Of a stretch of DNA of 64,000 nt, positions 37,291 to 45,890 are shown one piece after another. A model generated the notes under the pieces. It worked only from the letters and a program-made list of their open reading frames with translations, had not been told where the DNA came from and ran no database searches. This DNA is from Ruminococcus sp. (lineage in GTDB: Bacteria; Bacillota; Clostridia; Oscillospirales; Ruminococcaceae), in the NCBI GenBank assembly GCA_017542475.1, contig JAFXXD010000016.1, positions 1 through 64,000 of the forward strand, in the 5' to 3' direction. Numbering within the stretch: the first letter of the stretch is position 1; each line of letters opens with the position of its first letter. Made by a program: the position numbers and the translations under genes.

Positions 37291-37722
37291 TTAGAGAGAT
37301 ATAGTTGCAAGGAGAGCAGCTCTCGCAGCCTCGTCGACCTCGTTCTGAGTGTCTTCGAGTCTGTCACTTGCCCATATCTCAGCTCTGTTGTAGTTGCCCA
37401 CTACTGTGACATCGCCCGTTATTCCGGCTTTTTCCCTCAGCTTCTGGGAGATAAATATTCTTCCCTGCGCATCGGGAGACTGCTTTTCAGCTCCGGCAAG
37501 CACCTCACGTCTTATCTGTTCGGCACCGGGACCTGTCAGGTTATAGAGCTTCTGGGTGTATTCATCGAAATCCTCAATGGAAAAAGCGGCAATATAGCGT
37601 CTGTCATGGCTCAGGCAGAGATAGAATTCTCCTCCGAGGATATCACGAAGCTTACTCGGGAAGCTCATACGTCCCTTGGCATCGATACTGGGATTAAAAG
37701 TACCGCATAATGGCTGACGCAT
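37291..37722 (-). CDS. mraZ: transcriptional regulator MraZ
   Basis: 143 residues from the ATG at 37722, with GAGG eight bases upstream; a GTG three codons earlier is less likely. Two SpoVT/AbrB-like halves are seen, each with the D-x-K-G-R type core: SIDAKGRMSFPSKLRD near 14 and SPDAQGRIFISQKLRE near 85. MraZ is a DNA-binding repressor of its own operon. The gene is the first of the cluster and is read from the promoter at 37817-37845. Confidence 0.96.
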   Translation of the reverse strand: MRQPLCGTFNPSIDAKGRMSFPSKLRDILGGEFYLCLSHDRRYIAAFSIEDFDEYTQKLYNLTGPGAEQIRREVLAGAEKQSPDAQGRIFISQKLREKAGITGDVTVVGNYNRAEIWASDRLEDTQNEVDEAARAALLATISL

Positions 37723-37750
37723 GACCTTCACCTCACTTCCTTGACTCTTC

Positions 37751-38122: not shown

Positions 38123-39592
38123 TTAATACGTGATCTGTTCCTGTTCTGTAGTTCCGCCGCCGACAGGAGTCTCGCCCGCTGTCTCCGTGGTGAATTCCTC
38201 TGAAGCTGTCGTTTCCTCGGGGAGCGTCGGCTCGGAGGTCTCCTCGCCCGTCCACTCGCTTGTTTCCTCGGTGGTATCCTCGGTCGTTTCCTCCGTCGTA
38301 TCCTCAGGTTCGTCGGCAGGCGACTTCAGGTCGCCGATATTCGTAGGCTGGTTATTCGGGTAAACAACGCCGGGCGTGTAGCGGTAATCCGCGTCAACGA
38401 CCTCTATTTCAGATGTGCCGTGCGGTATATCCTCGCCCTCGGGTCTCGGCGTGTAGAACACGTTGAACTTCGAGGACTTGAGGTTGAGCGCGAGCTTGAA
38501 CTCATAGCCCTTGACCGTCAGCTGGTCGTCTATGTTTACGTATGTAACATAGCCTGTCTCGTCGGAATATTCAGGCTGTATCCATCTTGCAGGCTCGTCC
38601 GAGAGCTTGATGTTGTAAGCCTTTTCTATCATATTCCTTAGCTGGAAGTCGTCGATATAGGTGACAGTGCCGTAATGCGGGTCATAGCAGGCGTCGTAGT
38701 CGCTGGACACCGACCTAAGATAAGGCAGGTTCGCCCAGAAGACCTCGCTGCAATTAGCAGTGATACCGCCGCTCGAAGCCGAGAACATCGTCAGTGCGTA
38801 GTCATCGTTATAGAAGAGCGCCTGACCGAGCACGTCGTTTACCGCGTCAACAACGACCTGCGGAGGATGCGGCTTGCATCTCAGGTCAGCCGAGTCGCCG
38901 TTGTGGTACATACAGTAGGTGTAGACCGCGACCGCCTGAGCCTTGATAGCCTCATAGCTCATCGTGCCGCCGACCTCGTTGAACACTATCTGCGACACCA
39001 TCGAGAGCACGTCTCCCGAAACGCCGTTCACGGTTATCTCGTCGTCCTCGTCCACACACGTATCCATCAGGTACGTGTCGGGGTAGTAATGGAAGAGAAT
39101 ATCCTGATAGGTCCAGTCGGAATAGGTAGCGTAGAAATTCGCGCCGTTCTGGCTCATTCCGACGCCGTGTCCCCAGCCGTAGGTAACTATCGCGAACTTG
39201 CCCGGGGTCGATTCTATCTCGGGCTCGCTCTCGAACCACGGGATATCGCCGACATATCCGCCCGTCACATTTAGCTCGACAGGCGTGGGCTTCTTGTTTT
39301 TCTTCTTGGCTCCGCTGTTTCCCGATTCGGGGGAAGCCTCATAGCTGATGAGAGAGAGACTGTCGTCGTAATCGTCGAGCGTAGCCTTGTACCACTCGAT
39401 CTCCCGCTCCTCCTGCTCTTCCGCCTCGGCAGTAGTCTCCGCAGCGGTGGTATCTGTACCGACAGAGCCTGTGGTCGTGCTTTCGGTCGTTGTGGTATCT
39501 GCGGCGCCTGCCGAGTAGCTCGAACCCGTGAATGCTATCACGACTCCCGCAATGGCAGCCACCGCCCTCTTAAAAGGTGTTTCAGTCTTCAT
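38123..39592 (-). CDS. secreted protein with circularly permuted SpoIID domain
   Basis: 489 residues from the ATG at 39592 (GAGG eight bases upstream). A signal peptide or anchor (about 8-30) and a Thr/Glu-rich stretch lead to a SpoIID/LytB-type domain whose halves are swapped. GWGHGVGMSQNGA and ILFHYYPDT, normally at the C-terminal end of the domain, come first (about 143-180). The catalytic-Glu half, VFNEVGG...EAIKAQAVAVYTY and then FSASSGGITANC and LPYLRSV, comes after (about 205-300). The acidic, Thr-rich tail (about 410-489) has no LPxTG-membrane anchor. SpoIID is a lytic transglycosylase acting on peptide-free glycan. Last gene of the sortase operon. Confidence 0.87.
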   Translation of the reverse strand: MKTETPFKRAVAAIAGVVIAFTGSSYSAGAADTTTTESTTTGSVGTDTTAAETTAEAEEQEEREIEWYKATLDDYDDSLSLISYEASPESGNSGAKKKNKKPTPVELNVTGGYVGDIPWFESEPEIESTPGKFAIVTYGWGHGVGMSQNGANFYATYSDWTYQDILFHYYPDTYLMDTCVDEDDEITVNGVSGDVLSMVSQIVFNEVGGTMSYEAIKAQAVAVYTYCMYHNGDSADLRCKPHPPQVVVDAVNDVLGQALFYNDDYALTMFSASSGGITANCSEVFWANLPYLRSVSSDYDACYDPHYGTVTYIDDFQLRNMIEKAYNIKLSDEPARWIQPEYSDETGYVTYVNIDDQLTVKGYEFKLALNLKSSKFNVFYTPRPEGEDIPHGTSEIEVVDADYRYTPGVVYPNNQPTNIGDLKSPADEPEDTTEETTEDTTEETSEWTGEETSEPTLPEETTASEEFTTETAGETPVGGGTTEQEQITY

Positions 39593-39627
39593 CGCTATCA
39601 CCTCTTTCAATGAATGTATGTCTTAGC

Positions 39628-40569
39628 TTACTGAGCCTCTTCGGTGTTTTCCTCCGCCGAAGGCTCAGTAGGCGCGTGTGCTTTCTTGTACTCCTCTGTC
39701 CTCTCGACTGTGGAGAGGTCGCCTGCCTTCTCGCCGTCGCGCAGACGTCTCGCAATGATGATGAATCGCGAGTTGTCCTCGTCAGCATAGCAGGTTGAGA
39801 GCGTGAGAAGCTTGTCGCCGTACTTCACATCGACGCCCGTATCAAAGAGCTGCCGTCCTCTTGCGAGATCGATGTACTCGTTGAAGATCTCCTCGTCGTC
39901 GAGCTCCTCCATATCCCAGTAGCCGTAATCGGTATAGGTGTGACCGCTGGTTATGGCACAGCAGCAGATGACGTAGTCATAGTCCCTGTAATTCGAGCTC
40001 AGCTCGATGAACGGCGCCTTCTCGAAGAAGCCGAAGTCCTGCCTGTACCTTCTTATAGAGCCGAACATCGTATTGTTAGCCATATTGTGACCGTAGATGA
40101 CGATATTCTCGGACTGGCTGTCCTCGTCGCTGCCGAAGTAGTCGCGGAAGTCCATGAACAGGCAGCCCTCGCGGTGGTACTGGCGGTCGATGCCGCGCTC
40201 GAGGTAATAGGAATTGACCTCATGTGCATCTCCGCCGTAATAATCCACGCCCTCGGGCACCTCGCCCGGGTCTCTTACGACGGGGTAATCGACCTTTGTC
40301 TGGTCTATTTTTATCCAGCCGATGATGTCCTTGTTCTGTTTGAGGAGCTGCTTTGCTCTCTCCGTCATACCCTGTTCCGAAGGAACGTAGTCATATGTCG
40401 GGAGCGTGGTCGGCTCGGTGGACGCCTCGGTCACCGGCTGAGCCTTGCCGACGATGTGTTCCTCTTTTTTATCCTCGCAGCCGAAAAGCGCTGCCGCAGA
40501 AAGTCCCGCCGCAGCGGCAAGGGCAGTGCAGGCTGCGATAAGCCTGATTTTGCTTTTCAAATGTATCAA
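39628..40569 (-). CDS. class B sortase, small
   Basis: 313 residues. An N-terminal signal or anchor ends LFGC (residues 28-31), a possible but imperfect lipobox. The catalytic core has IVIYGHNM (His) near 150, TLSTC (Cys) near 252, and the Arg in RFIIIARR, as in SrtB-type transpeptidases. The C-terminal extension is acidic. Sortases join secreted proteins to peptidoglycan or to each other. The start overlaps the stop of the larger sortase gene by 4 nt. Confidence 0.9.
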   Translation of the reverse strand: MIHLKSKIRLIAACTALAAAAGLSAAALFGCEDKKEEHIVGKAQPVTEASTEPTTLPTYDYVPSEQGMTERAKQLLKQNKDIIGWIKIDQTKVDYPVVRDPGEVPEGVDYYGGDAHEVNSYYLERGIDRQYHREGCLFMDFRDYFGSDEDSQSENIVIYGHNMANNTMFGSIRRYRQDFGFFEKAPFIELSSNYRDYDYVICCCAITSGHTYTDYGYWDMEELDDEEIFNEYIDLARGRQLFDTGVDVKYGDKLLTLSTCYADEDNSRFIIIARRLRDGEKAGDLSTVERTEEYKKAHAPTEPSAEENTEEAQ

Positions 40570-42092
40570 TCCTCGATATTTGCTTTGCTATTCTCGTTTT
40601 TTGGTTTGTACGGAACAAACGAGTCAGGGTCGTACTTCTCGTTCGGGTGCTGCTGGTAGTAGATGTTCGGCCACTTTATATTTGTATTCTTCTCGCTGTT
40701 CTTGGTTCCCTCGTAGAGGTCCTCGCCCACGCGGACGCGGCGTGCCATAAGTATCAGTCTTCCGCGGCTGTCGCCGATAACGTCGGTGTTGCAGGTGGAT
40801 ATCGTGAGTATCGGGTCACCGTACTGCACATCCACGTCATTTGTGCGGAGAGTGCGTCTTTTCGCCTCGTTGACGAAGTCGTAGAACTCCTCCTCATCGT
40901 CGAAGTTGAGGGTGTTCCAGCAGTCGTACTCGGTATCGGTGTCGTCCTCCGCGTCGAGCAGGAAGAACGAGAATATCTTGTACGTGTACTGCTCGTAGTT
41001 GGAGTTGAACTCGATTATCGGGTGGTTCTCGTAGTAGTTTTCGTTGCGGTAGTAGTATTTAAGGGCTCCGAACATACTCTCGTCAGCCATATTGTGACCG
41101 TAGACGATGAGGTTATCGGAATTCTTCTCGATGAGGCGGTGGTTCTCGACGACGTCGAAGTGGTTGCGCCAGTCGAGGAAGAGAGCTCCCGCACGCGAAT
41201 CCTCGCCCTTGAAATTAAGGTGGAGGTACTTGCTGTTGTCCTCAGCCTGCACGACGGGCAGAGCCACTATCGGGTTGCCGTCAATTGTAGGTATAGTCAT
41301 ATATCCTATGACATCAGGGTTGATGTCGAGCAGCTTCTTCGCACCCGGGAGAAGGTCGTAATACTTGTCGCCCACGTTCTGCTTCTCGTCAACCGAGGTG
41401 ATAATGGGCGTGTAGGTACGGTAGATGTCGTCGATGTTGCTGTACTCGATACGGCTGCGCCACAGGTCGAGGTAGTAGTCACCGACCATATATCCGCACA
41501 CGACTATCGCCACCAGCGAGCCGAGGAACACGAACTTCCTGACGATCTCGAGCGGCTTGTCCCCCTTCTCGGGGAAGAGACCGCGGAGCCTCTGCCCGAG
41601 GGTCTTGGGCTTTTTCTTCTTTTTCTTCTTCTTTTTCGGGTCGGTGTGCATACGCGGCTCGGTATGGGGAGTATTCGCCCATGCCTCGCGCGGCTTTCTC
41701 ATAGGGTTGAGCAGCGGAGCCTGCGGTGCTGTCTGCGGCTGTACTGCCTCAGCGGGAGCCTCCTTCACGGGAGCGGTCACCTCAGCGGGAGCCTCAGTCG
41801 CAGGAGCTGTCTCCGCAGCCGTCTCCTCTGCGGGAGCTGCTGCTTCTGCGGGAGCCTCGTCCGCTCTGTTCTGCGCGGCGAGCTTGTTGCGTCTCACGCG
41901 GTCGAACTTAGCCGCAAAGCTCTCCTCCGCGGCAGAAACGGCTTCCTCCGCGGTCTGAGCCTGTACGGGAGCGGTCTCCTGCGGCTCTTCGGCGCGGAGC
42001 GAAGCTCTGATAGCCTTTATCTTGTCGGCTTTGCGCTTAGCCTCGGCGGCGGCTTGCTCTTCATTCAGTTTATCTATGTAATTATCGCTCAT
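40566..42092 (-). CDS. class B sortase with long cytoplasmic extension
   Basis: 508 residues. Residues 1-155 are low-complexity and charged, rich in Ala, Pro and Glu. They end in a run of nine lysines (about 154-162). One membrane segment (about 188-208) follows, then the sortase domain with LIVYGHNM, TISTC and RLILMARR. The catalytic triad is complete. A 185-residue cytoplasmic part is unusual for a sortase and may bind an acidic partner or the membrane. First gene of the operon with the small sortase and the SpoIID-like protein. Confidence 0.9.
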   Translation of the reverse strand: MSDNYIDKLNEEQAAAEAKRKADKIKAIRASLRAEEPQETAPVQAQTAEEAVSAAEESFAAKFDRVRRNKLAAQNRADEAPAEAAAPAEETAAETAPATEAPAEVTAPVKEAPAEAVQPQTAPQAPLLNPMRKPREAWANTPHTEPRMHTDPKKKKKKKKKPKTLGQRLRGLFPEKGDKPLEIVRKFVFLGSLVAIVVCGYMVGDYYLDLWRSRIEYSNIDDIYRTYTPIITSVDEKQNVGDKYYDLLPGAKKLLDINPDVIGYMTIPTIDGNPIVALPVVQAEDNSKYLHLNFKGEDSRAGALFLDWRNHFDVVENHRLIEKNSDNLIVYGHNMADESMFGALKYYYRNENYYENHPIIEFNSNYEQYTYKIFSFFLLDAEDDTDTEYDCWNTLNFDDEEEFYDFVNEAKRRTLRTNDVDVQYGDPILTISTCNTDVIGDSRGRLILMARRVRVGEDLYEGTKNSEKNTNIKWPNIYYQQHPNEKYDPDSFVPYKPKNENSKANIED

Positions 42093-42167: not shown

Positions 42168-42197
42168 ATTTTACACTATCAGCCGACCCTTTGTCAA
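42168..42197 (-). promoter_or_regulatory. promoter of sortase operon
   Basis: Minus strand: TTGACA (42192-42197), 18-bp spacer, TAAAAT (42168-42173), about 76 bp before the start codon. Confidence 0.75.
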
Positions 42198-42393: not shown

Positions 42394-43572
42394 TTATTTG
42401 GAATAATTGAACGTCTTTATGGTCGTCCCCTCTACTGCCTTCTGTATCAGCGGCTCGAAATCGAAGCTGTTCTGCGCCTTTTCGATGTCCTCGAGGCGCG
42501 GACGCACCTTCGGGTGGCGGGGTGTGAACACGGTGCAGCAGTCCTCATACGGAAGGGTAGAGGTCTCGAAAGTGTCGATTTTTCGCGATATCTCGATTAT
42601 CTCCGTCTTATCCATACCTATGAGCGGACGCAGAACGGGTATGCGGCAGACGGCGTCCGTACAGCCGATAGCCGCCATGGTCTGACTCGCGACCTGTCCG
42701 ACGCTCTCGCCCGTGATGAGGGCGAGGCAGTTGTCCTTTTCGGCTATTCTCTGCGCTATCTCCATCATCAGACGGCGCATTATTATCGTGAAGAACTCCT
42801 CGGGACAGTTGTCCTTGATAGCCTCCTGAATCTCGGTGAACGGCACGCAGTAGAACGCGATACCGCCGCACCAGTCGGTCAGCTTCTCGCAGAGCTGCTC
42901 CACCTTGAGCTGTGCGCGGTCGGAGGTATAGGGCGGGCTGACGTAGTGTATCGCCGCGATGTGTACTCCCCTCTTCGCCATCATCCAGCCCGCAACTGGA
43001 CTGTCAATGCCTCCCGACAGCAGCAGCAGAGCCTTTCCGCTGCTTCCCACGGGAAGTCCACCCGCGCCCTTGAGCTTCTCGGCGTGGACGTAGGCGTTGG
43101 TGTCGCGTATCTCGACCGTTACCGTCACCTCGGGCTCTTTCACGTCGACCGTGAGGTTCGGGAACTTTTCAAGCAGTATCGCGCCGAGCTCGGTGCATAT
43201 CTCGGGCGACTTCATGGGGAACGCCTTATCCGAGCGCTTGGACGCCACCTTGAACGTCCTCGCCGTGCCGAGCACGCCGCCGCAGTAGTCTATCGCCTTT
43301 GCCGTGATATCGGCAAAATCCTTCTCGCAGACACAGGCTCTGCACAGAGCCGCAATGCCGAAGACCTTGCTCACGCGGTCAACAACCTCGTCGAGGTCTA
43401 TGTCGTCGTCGAGCGGGGTTATGTAGGTCGTGGACTGCGCGCTCGTGAGCTGGAAATGTCCGAGGCGCTTCAGTCTGCGCTTGATGTTTTTGGTGAGCAT
43501 ATCCTCGAAGGTCTTTTTGTTCAGTCCCTTCAGCACCATTTCGCCGTATTTTACAAGAACTATCTCTTTCAT
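42394..43572 (-). CDS. thiI: tRNA 4-thiouridine synthetase ThiI
   Basis: 392 residues. NFLD/THUMP region at 1-165, then the PP-loop ATPase with LLLSGGIDSPVAGW near 182. ThiI adenylates U8 of tRNA and transfers sulfur from a cysteine desulfurase persulfide; it may also feed thiamine thiazole. The rhodanese domain of the E. coli protein is absent, as in most Firmicutes. The desulfurase that should supply it is encoded three genes upstream in the same operon. Confidence 0.96.
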   Translation of the reverse strand: MKEIVLVKYGEMVLKGLNKKTFEDMLTKNIKRRLKRLGHFQLTSAQSTTYITPLDDDIDLDEVVDRVSKVFGIAALCRACVCEKDFADITAKAIDYCGGVLGTARTFKVASKRSDKAFPMKSPEICTELGAILLEKFPNLTVDVKEPEVTVTVEIRDTNAYVHAEKLKGAGGLPVGSSGKALLLLSGGIDSPVAGWMMAKRGVHIAAIHYVSPPYTSDRAQLKVEQLCEKLTDWCGGIAFYCVPFTEIQEAIKDNCPEEFFTIIMRRLMMEIAQRIAEKDNCLALITGESVGQVASQTMAAIGCTDAVCRIPVLRPLIGMDKTEIIEISRKIDTFETSTLPYEDCCTVFTPRHPKVRPRLEDIEKAQNSFDFEPLIQKAVEGTTIKTFNYSK

Positions 43573-43598: not shown

Positions 43599-44168
43599 TC
43601 AGTGGAAATATTTAAGCTCGCTTCTGTAGCCGACATACACGATAAGGTCCCTGTCCCTTTTCAGAGGTCCGTACATATCCTGCATCTCATATCTGTCATA
43701 CGGGACAAGCACGTCATCGGTGAGCTCTTTGCGGCTCATCCACATTTCGGAAAATTTCCCGTCCTTATACTTCATGATAATGTTGTAGGTGTAACGAGAG
43801 TGTCCATCAAAATAATTCTGATTCACACTCTCGGGGAAAAACTCGCACGGCTCGCTGACGAGCCCGTCGGGGCCGAATGTCGCATATATGGTGTATTCCT
43901 TGTCGGCGGGTATCTCCTTTTTCTGCTCTTCGTAGTAGTCGACTATTGAACTGTCCGTAGCCTTCCTGCACGATGTCGCCTGACCGATATAGCTATCCAC
44001 CACATATCCGCCAAAATAAGAACCAAACAGAAGGTACATTCCGAACAATCCGCCGACAATGCACAGCGACACCATCAGAAATGCGAAAGCCGCAATTTTC
44101 AGTTCCTTGAGAGCCTTGCCGCCCTTCTTCGGGGTGTTTTCATCTTTCATATTCTTCATCTCGTCCAT
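43599..44168 (-). CDS. membrane-anchored protein, paralog 1
   Basis: 189 residues. A charged cytoplasmic N-terminus, one membrane segment (about 27-50, AAFAFLMVSLCIVGGLFGMY), and an extracytoplasmic domain. It shares with the upstream gene the start MDEM, the segment IPADKEYTIYAT, the phrase GLVSEPCEFFP and the end pattern ELTDDVLVPYDRYE. The two are therefore a tandem duplication. No family is recognised. It lies between the desulfurase and thiI with 26-bp gaps on both sides, so it is in the operon. Confidence 0.8.
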   Translation of the reverse strand: MDEMKNMKDENTPKKGGKALKELKIAAFAFLMVSLCIVGGLFGMYLLFGSYFGGYVVDSYIGQATSCRKATDSSIVDYYEEQKKEIPADKEYTIYATFGPDGLVSEPCEFFPESVNQNYFDGHSRYTYNIIMKYKDGKFSEMWMSRKELTDDVLVPYDRYEMQDMYGPLKRDRDLIVYVGYRSELKYFH

Positions 44169-44194: not shown

Positions 44195-44746
44195 TCACTT
44201 GTTTTTCCAGACTGCATCCTTGAAGCTGCTGTAACCGATGACGTCCTTCGCGCCCTTCAATTTTCCGAACATCTCGCGCTGCTCCTCCCTGCTGTAGCTG
44301 CGGAGCATATCATCGGTGAGCGGCTTCTTCTCCAGCGACCACGCTTCGGCGGGGACTCCGTCCCTGAATCGGACAGCGATATTGAAGGTCGTTTTCCACT
44401 GCCTTGAATAATAAGCGTTGGTCGCGCTCTGCGGAAGGAGCTCGCACGGCTCGTTGACCAGTCCGTCCTTGGTGCAGGTCGCCCTGACGAGGTATTCCTT
44501 ATCAGCGGGAACAGTCTTGCCCTGCGCTTCATAGCAGTCACTTGCCTGTGCGTAGATAGCCTTTGCACACTCCAAAGCCACGGCGTCCCTGTCGTCTATC
44601 ATACGGCTGCCCCACGCCATGTTTATTCCATACACATACATCAATCCGAGGACGACAAACACCGTCGTTACTCCAAGGAGCCATATCAGCCCCTTTTTCC
44701 GCGCCTTTTCCTGTTTGCCCTGTTCCATATCAAGCATCTCGTCCAT
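44195..44746 (-). CDS. membrane-anchored protein, paralog 2
   Basis: 183 residues. One membrane segment (about 20-43, LIWLLGVTTVFVVLGLMYVYG) and an extracytoplasmic domain with VPADKEYLVRAT, GLVNEPCELLP and PLTDDMLRSYSREE, matching the neighbour at 43599. The conserved cysteine in EPCE and another in the ASDC/ATSC region are shared by both. It begins 16 bp after the cysteine desulfurase stop. Function unknown. Confidence 0.8.
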   Translation of the reverse strand: MDEMLDMEQGKQEKARKKGLIWLLGVTTVFVVLGLMYVYGINMAWGSRMIDDRDAVALECAKAIYAQASDCYEAQGKTVPADKEYLVRATCTKDGLVNEPCELLPQSATNAYYSRQWKTTFNIAVRFRDGVPAEAWSLEKKPLTDDMLRSYSREEQREMFGKLKGAKDVIGYSSFKDAVWKNK

Positions 44747-44762: not shown

Positions 44763-45890
44763 TCAGCCTCTCACGCTCACGATACCCTCGGCGAGAGCCC
44801 GCGCGAACTCCTCTATCTCGGCTTCGGTGGTCTCGGCGGTCATACTCACACGCAGCGCCGAATCAGCCCTCTTGCCCGAAATGCCGAACTGCCCGAGCAC
44901 GCCGCTCTGCTGTCCCTTCGAGCACGCCGAGCCGCTTGACACGTATATCCCGCGGCTTTCGAGGTAGTGGAGCATTATCTCCGAGCGCTTGCCTGCCGCG
45001 GAGATGTTCACCACGTAGGGCGAGCCGTCCGCAGGCGAGTTGACCTCCACGCCGTCTATCGCGGAGACGAGCTCCGTAAGCCTTGCTTTCAGCGATGTTA
45101 CGCGCTCATAGCGGTCGCTTATCGTCGGAGAGAGCTTCTCAACAGCCGCTCCGAACGCACATATCAGCGGGACGCTCTCCGTGCCCGAGCGAATGCCCTT
45201 TTCCTGCTTCCCGCCCGTAACTACGGGGATAAGCCGCACGCCCCTGCGGATATAGAGGGCTCCCACGCCCTTTACTCCGTGTATTTTATGCCCGCTCAGC
45301 GATATGAGGTCGGCGCCGAGCTGATTCGCCTTCACAGGAAGCTTCATATACGCCTGCACGCAGTCGGTGTGCGTGATTATGTCCTTGAAGCGGCGCTTTA
45401 CGGCGGTGAAGGTCTCCTTCACGGGCAGGATATAGCCCGTCTCGTTGTTGACGTACATCATCGTCAGCAGCACCGTGTCCTCATTGCACGCGGAGAGGAA
45501 GTCCTCGGCGCAGAAGCGCCCGTCCTCCCTCGGCGACACGCGCACCACCTCGAAGCCCTTGCTTTCGAGGTCGGAGAGGGTCTCGTCCACGGAGGCGTGC
45601 TCCACAGCGGAGGCGACTATCCTGCGGCGTCTTTTGCCGTAAGCAGCAGAGGCTCCGCGGAGGGCGAGATTATTGCTCTCGGTCGCACCCGAGGTGAAAA
45701 TTATGTTGTCGGGCTCAGCTCCGATCGAGTCCGCGATCGTCTTTCTCGCCCTATCCATAGCCAGCTGAGCGTTCAGCCCCGCCCTGTGCAGGGACGACGG
45801 ATTGCCGAAATTATCGGTCATAGCCTCCAGCGCAGCCTGCACCGCTTCGGGACAGGGCTTTGTCGTGGCGGCGTTGTCAAGATATATCAT
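44763..45890 (-). CDS. cysteine desulfurase (NifS/IscS family)
   Basis: 375 residues. PLP-dependent fold type I: YLDNAATTKPCPEA at the start, FTSGATESNNLALRG, the PLP lysine in SGHKIHGVKGVGALYI near 200, and the active-site cysteine in SSGSACSKGQQ near 325. It takes sulfur from cysteine as a persulfide. As first gene of an operon ending in thiI it most likely feeds tRNA thiolation; a role in Fe-S assembly is possible. Confidence 0.95.
   Translation of the reverse strand: MIYLDNAATTKPCPEAVQAALEAMTDNFGNPSSLHRAGLNAQLAMDRARKTIADSIGAEPDNIIFTSGATESNNLALRGASAAYGKRRRRIVASAVEHASVDETLSDLESKGFEVVRVSPREDGRFCAEDFLSACNEDTVLLTMMYVNNETGYILPVKETFTAVKRRFKDIITHTDCVQAYMKLPVKANQLGADLISLSGHKIHGVKGVGALYIRRGVRLIPVVTGGKQEKGIRSGTESVPLICAFGAAVEKLSPTISDRYERVTSLKARLTELVSAIDGVEVNSPADGSPYVVNISAAGKRSEIMLHYLESRGIYVSSGSACSKGQQSGVLGQFGISGKRADSALRVSMTAETTEAEIEEFARALAEGIVSVRG

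Follow-up and report, generated by a model that had tools for sequence, protein, structure and literature searches.

A circularly permuted SpoIID/LytB domain encoded beside class B sortases in Ruminococcus

The sortase locus and its SpoIID-like gene

The window, that is, the whole stretch of 64,000 nucleotides analyzed here, comes from Ruminococcus sp. (assembly GCA_017542475.1, contig JAFXXD010000016.1, positions 1 to 64,000), and all the features located in it below are on the minus strand. The gene under study (38123..39592) is an open reading frame for a permuted SpoIID-domain protein of 489 aa, with its ATG at 39592 and its stop codon ending at 38123; a ribosome-binding-site-like AGAGGTG was recognized by eye just ahead of the ATG (39599..39605). 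By eye, the protein is composed of a signal-peptide-like N-terminus (residues 1-31, 39500..39592, read from the sequence), a Thr/Glu-rich spacer, a SpoIID-like core (approximately residues 125-385), and a Thr/Glu-rich C-terminal tail (residues 389-489, 38126..38428), in which no sorting signal was seen by eye. Judging by its sequence, the protein is probably exported.

The 489-aa protein reached the curated SpoIID/LytB family scores of both PF08486 and TIGR02669. The PF08486 match (23.4 bits, cut-off 23) extends over 35 residues only (198-232), and TIGR02669 matched in two stretches with 105.8 bits against a cut-off of 83.3. The sporulation SpoIID equivalog TIGR02870 was missed, with 115.2 of the 234.75 bits required.

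Concerning the neighboring genes, a class B sortase-like gene (39628..40569) lies 35 nt upstream of the SpoIID gene. It scored over the Pfam Sortase cut-off and under that of TIGR03064 (125.2 vs 153.75 bits), which is passed by the second class B sortase gene (40566..42092) with 156.8 bits. With the listed TTG start of the second gene, the two sortase genes share 4 nt. A promoter-like TTGACA-18-TAAAAT, identified as a consensus match only, is located ahead of the sortase/SpoIID group (42168..42197), and no minus-strand promoter-like site is listed between the three genes. Given this overlap, the 35-nt gap, and the single upstream promoter-like site, the joint expression of the sortases and the SpoIID gene is likely.

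Further upstream, thiI (42394..43572) was identified by family profile matches and a class V aminotransferase gene (44763..45890) by Pfam; the latter is called iscS here as a working label that implies no subtype. Between them, 43602-44168 and 44198-44746 encode two similar small proteins of 189 and 183 aa, a pair resembling a tandem duplicate, without Pfam match and with one likely membrane segment each as seen by eye. On the downstream side, mraZ (37291..37731, Pfam) starts a division/cell-wall gene cluster.

Order of the two blocks in the SpoIID domain

An earlier note, made from the letters of this DNA alone, had proposed that the two halves of a SpoIID domain are swapped in this protein while keeping their motifs, as expected from a circular permutation. 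The motif positions on which it relied are right: GHGVGMSQNGA at residues 141-151, FHYYPDT at 167-173, FNEVGG at 204-209, EAIKAQAVA at 214-222, and MFSASSGG at 269-276. The protein contains a single complete SpoIID domain, in which the GHGVGMSQ/YYP block (approximately residues 131-175, GHGVGMSQNGA...YQDILFHYYPDT, 39068..39202), C-terminal in ordinary SpoIID, precedes the block that comes first in ordinary SpoIID (approximately residues 192-381, 38450..39019). This second block runs from the catalytic-Glu helix through SASSGG and PYLRSV to KSSKFNVFY, and carries the codon of Glu206 (38975..38977), the equivalent of the catalytic Glu101 of Clostridioides difficile SpoIID according to the alignments to solved SpoIID. 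The new joint of the two blocks (approximately residues 176-191, 39020..39067) was placed by a rotation scan, linker counts, and a loop in the predicted model. Since its GHGVGMSQ block is N-terminal, the protein is a permuted variant and not an ordinary member of the SpoIID/LytB family.

The comparison with solved structures extends this order to the entire domain. A phmmer search of the PDB aligned the protein with C. difficile SpoIID (5i1t) in three pieces, which follow one another differently in the two chains; the short KAQAVA piece is weak on its own (6.4 bits, i-E 29). Profile A1 was built from 27 permuted proteins, all of which are matched by PF08486 at E<=0.001. Four permuted loci are absent from it: L011, L013, and L034 because the first motif script did not detect them, and L028 because of a premature stop in its frame. 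This profile matched 5i1t_A, 5txu_A, and 4rwr_A in three significant stretches each, in permuted order. On 5i1t, profile positions 69-125 correspond to chain residues 56-112 (i-E 1.1e-6), 125-264 to 141-281 (i-E 5.6e-20), and 14-60 to 282-327 (i-E 1.2e-11). Residues 281 and 282 of the C. difficile protein are contiguous, yet they are matched by profile positions 264 and 14, respectively; the cut thus lies between them, and this, together with the match over the whole domain, is what a circular permutation predicts.

Furthermore, an HMM of the normal order, built from 101 normal-order sequences, recognized the native protein in two swapped pieces (64.2 and 147.0 bits). When the core was rotated in silico, the best normal-order domain rose to 222.9 bits from 149.2 unrotated, with an optimum when the rotated core started at residues 178-184, giving one domain that spans positions 8-268 of the 269 of the model. 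Both this HMM and the comparison of A1 with the PDB indicate that the two blocks jointly cover the SpoIID domain once, in swapped order. The linker between the blocks has 6-10 residues in 57 of 58 permuted ORFs and 18 in the remaining one.

A second GHGVGMSQ block, which the earlier note had named as contrary evidence, was searched for in all 227 ORFs that carry both blocks (the window ORF included, and some genes counted repeatedly through several loci), and none was a two-block ORF at the HMM threshold used. A tandem-domain protein with an overlooked second block was thus rejected as an explanation, as that block is seen in none of these ORFs. A misassembly, or two short motifs brought together by chance, would be another explanation, for which no support was found; the identical order in many assemblies and genera and the extension of the matches over the whole domain, both in the rotation scan and with A1 against the PDB, leave it next to no probability.

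The AlphaFold2 model obtained from A1 (mean pLDDT 91.5, pTM 0.86) was compared with known structures by Foldseek. Only three hits appeared at E<=0.001 and all of them are SpoIID, namely 5i1t_A (E 3.0e-9, TM 0.67 by query, 2.4 A) and two 4rwr chains (E about 1.5e-5, TM 0.52); hence, the other contrary outcome that had been foreseen, a fold unlike SpoIID, was not observed. Of the structural check suggested earlier, the prediction was obtained and the superposition was achieved in part, with the moved block outside the aligned region because Foldseek aligns in chain order. The model places the new ends at strands 16-21 and 260-265, whose normal-order counterparts are consecutive across a short turn, and a short loop from strand 58-61 to strand 69-72 connects the old ends; these strands would pair in space. 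Both the short linker and this strand pattern agree with old ends that are close together and new ends within a turn. According to this prediction, the SpoIID fold is retained.

Taken together, that this is a genuine and complete circular permutation of the SpoIID/LytB lytic-transglycosylase domain can hardly be doubted. The whole domain is homologous to the SpoIID proteins of C. difficile (5i1t, 5txu) and Bacillus anthracis (4rwr), with which it has in common the catalytic Glu, the KAQAVA and GHGVGMSQ motifs, and the fold. However, it differs from them in the swapped order of the blocks, in a Phe at the position of Tyr194, in a shortened loop that lacks the clostridial zinc ligands, in its long low-complexity ends, and in being encoded at a sortase locus instead of a sporulation locus.

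Natural circular permutations of enzymes are known, and the NlpC/P60 fold differs from the SpoIID fold. No report of a circularly permuted SpoIID was found in the open-licence PMC literature, a scope beyond which most subscription papers lie. A precedent is described in part of PMC6403190, where NlpC/P60 and LRAT/YaeF represent a circularly permuted catalytic domain within a superfamily that includes cell-wall hydrolases, with a chemistry other than that of SpoIID. The protein described here belongs to a known enzyme family as a permuted variant. As the Pfam SpoIID model matches only 35 of its residues, annotation can hide the rearrangement, and permuted proteins may be counted as partial or as sporulation SpoIIDs.

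Relatives at the same locus and number of rearrangements

Proteins with the same block order, whose search had been recommended in the earlier note, were found in many genera. Profile A3 represents the joint between the blocks, which only permuted proteins can span, and was run on overlapping samples of public genomes. In the window's family, 35 of 298 genomes, from 11 genera, span it without stops (127-160 bits), and nine further genomes of this family were above the threshold with partial matches or internal stops (78-81 bits). Among 394 genomes of the order there were five full spans, three from the window's genus, its own genome included, and two from another family, as well as a sixth, partial match. 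In the 391 genomes of the class, only the window's own genome appeared among the matches listed, and it was also the only one in the 199 genomes of the phylum. In a second family, A3 was spanned in 43/250 genomes and 20/135 genera, with 88-136 bits.

A scan of GTDB genomes was also carried out, and the best 80 of 393 loci consist of 25 permuted and 55 normal-order ones. The nearest relatives among these 80 are Ruminococcus MAGs, including one labelled R. flavefaciens (L059). A yak-rumen Ruminococcus MAG (L055) encodes a protein 98% identical to that of the window over the core. In other relatives, the permuted SpoIID is fused to dockerin-type repeats (L096 and L105 by Pfam; L173, L190, and L197 by eye), hinting at surface or cellulosome-like complexes, and in L108:9425-10825 it is joined to an M23 peptidase domain, so two likely wall-cutting activities are found in one protein.

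The genes upstream of these best 80 of 393 loci were surveyed. In the window's clade, a class B sortase is upstream of all 16 named permuted loci and iscS and thiI are also present in 14, the remaining two having only 2.2 and 3.0 kb of upstream sequence. The nine other permuted loci comprise four with the iscS-thiI-sortase trio, two with the sortase only, one with the aminotransferase only, and two with none. Among the 55 normal-order loci, the trio is upstream in 11, iscS and thiI but no free-standing sortase gene in five (L102, with its fused sortase, among them), and a sortase with or without thiI in seven; four with none had less than 700 nt of upstream sequence, and the other 28 are of the sporulation type. 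On the downstream side, 7/16 named loci of the window's clade have mraZ and/or rsmH within 2.5 kb of the permuted gene (both genes in five); they were not seen in six further loci, and the sequence was too short in three.

As the same upstream genes accompany both orders, the normal and the permuted versions are alternatives at one iscS-thiI-srtB locus. The normal-order locus proteins (e.g., L071-L075, L092, and the fusion L102, with L035 in the same subfamily) resemble the permuted ones in their neighborhood where flanks are present, in the shortened loop, and in their subfamily on trees, but they keep the GHGVGMSQ block at the C-terminus. Since both orders share this gene position in related genera, a phylogeny can locate the event and the two versions can be compared. 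Some genes of this group show sortase fusions: L102:7076-10744 encodes CinA, sortase, and normal-order SpoIID in one protein at an iscS-thiI locus (Pfam), and a sortase match lies inside the normal-order SpoIID ORF in L097, L098, and L103. In L043:1-2496, the sortase-like region of a CinA/sortase/SpoIID-type protein seemingly lacks the active-site Cys (by eye). The NPP motif of the shortened loop was considered as a marker tying the window's clade to its normal-order neighbors and proved weak, being present in 32/46 proteins of this clade (clade A), 3/54 normal-order locus proteins, 0/79 sporulation-type proteins, 0/39 of the other permuted clade, and 0/1 for L037.

To build trees, the blocks were restored to the normal order before alignment. 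The 141-row tree, with 41 permuted proteins, was obtained from 168 ORFs minus duplicates, truncated rows, and near-copies, and it needs three order changes, two of them forced by starred branches. The 44-row tree (10 permuted; eight long or odd rows dropped, <55% identity, 14 of 36 outgroup rows) needs three changes, all three forced. In the 76-row tree (29 permuted), the second family is denser; 19 loci were dropped in advance along with odd block lengths, the rows were thinned to <58% identity, and every third of 59 outgroup rows was kept. It also needs three changes, with two forced by starred branches, and a tree without the moved block gave the same grouping, with three changes and two forced.

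Given the three order changes that the trees require, at least two rearrangements are favored on the basis of these alignments. The alternative of a single ancestral permutation, with all the permuted proteins forming one clade, would agree with the similar cut point and linker length of the two big permuted clades, and an AU test on the 76 rows does not reject it (p 0.119). Nevertheless, it is rejected on the 44 rows (AU p 0.0028; 0.045 with L037 not counted), trees with one change appeared in 0/200 bootstraps of both the 44-row and the 76-row trees, and each of the four trees requires three changes. Moreover, the window's clade is placed inside the normal-order locus proteins with 100/97 support (76 rows), a nesting that persists with the moved block left out (SH-aLRT 96). 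A single origin is therefore considered rather unlikely. Grouping the second clade with L037 is not rejected either (AU p 0.181), a result that also speaks for a single origin and by which two events may suffice, and a gain, a reversal, and a second gain amount to as many changes as three gains. It is somewhat likelier than the contrary that permutation of the domain occurred on two or three separate occasions at one orthologous sortase locus, or that a first permutation was reversed and then followed by another, at approximately the same hairpin each time.

Regarding the route, the chain would have been opened in a beta-hairpin-like turn immediately preceding the GHGVGMSQ strand. A short linker would have connected the former ends, one following YYPGT and the other preceding the strand that leads into the catalytic-Glu helix, with the fold and the active-site motifs kept. 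At the iscS-thiI-srtB locus, the permuted gene occupies the place of a normal-order orthologue. Duplication, fusion, and trimming of the ends seems the likeliest mutational route; PMC3320104 counts duplication with subsequent trimming as one of two main models of circular permutation. Tandem arrays of two or three sortase genes occur at several loci, which makes a duplication at the sortase locus plausible. An intermediate with two GHGVGMSQ blocks, predicted by this route and not required by the definition of a permutation, was found in 0/227 ORFs.

Predicted activity and role in the cell

SpoIID is a lytic transglycosylase that acts on glycan stripped by SpoIIP, with E101 as the catalytic residue in C. 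difficile, as described in part of PMC6934232. Glu206 aligns with this residue and is invariant in A1. By a strict pattern, the Glu motif is present in 46/46 proteins of the window's clade, 36/39 of the other permuted clade, 53/54 normal-order locus proteins, and 74/79 sporulation-type ones. In the 27 aligned proteins, little or no variation is seen at the catalytic Glu and over most of the KAQAVA and GHGVGMSQ motifs, and this argues against a folded but inactive domain that would bind peptidoglycan as a scaffold or regulator for the sortases. That reading could draw on two features of the same alignment. The position of C. difficile Tyr194, the one sugar-contacting residue reported to abolish activity (PMC6934232), corresponds here to Phe270 and is Phe in 25/27 proteins as counted by eye. 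In addition, by eye, a shortened loop connects the KAQAVA helix to the SASSGG strand and lacks the Cys/His stretch that forms the zinc site of clostridial SpoIID. Nevertheless, according to PMC6934232, zinc-binding residues are confined to the clostridial proteins, so they are not needed everywhere. An inactive scaffold is thus unlikely, and the protein is probably an active lytic transglycosylase, as far as conserved residues can indicate.

The family names that fit best are SpoIID and the genome contains Spo0A and SpoIIP, from which it could be thought that the 489-aa protein is the sporulation SpoIID of this organism. However, an ordinary-order SpoIID of 336 aa (L001) is encoded on another contig of the same genome, and the locus family is separated from the sporulation-type SpoIID with 100/98 support in the 76-row tree. 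In addition, none of the 28 sporulation-type normal-order loci among the best 80 of 393 has iscS, thiI, or a sortase upstream (four of them had less than 1 kb). Such an identity is very improbable, and it was rejected given the other, ordinary SpoIID of the genome. One study describes its Ruminococcus/Faecalibacterium group as lacking SpoIID orthologues; this genome has an ordinary-order one. Contig C56 of the same genome also encodes a SpoIID-like fragment (L004:1099-2496) with a degenerate GLSQWG before peptidoglycan-binding-like repeats, as seen by eye.

A vegetative, non-sporulation role would fit the sortase context, the ordinary SpoIID, SpoIIP, and Spo0A elsewhere in the genome, and the dockerin and M23 fusions of the permuted relatives. 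The enzyme would be expressed with the two class B sortases, and Glu206 would cleave peptidoglycan glycan strands in cells that are growing and not sporulating, perhaps to open or trim the wall at the attachment sites of sortase substrates. The chances that a functional link to the class B sortases exists appear evenly balanced. As an overall explanation, a permuted SpoIID with its fold kept, likely cutting the cell wall and associated with sortases, is quite probable.

The conserved pairing of a SpoIID-type enzyme and class B sortases points to a sortase-linked step of wall editing in gut Clostridia. Moreover, if the domain was indeed permuted repeatedly, the sortase locus would be a natural repeated experiment in permuting an enzyme.
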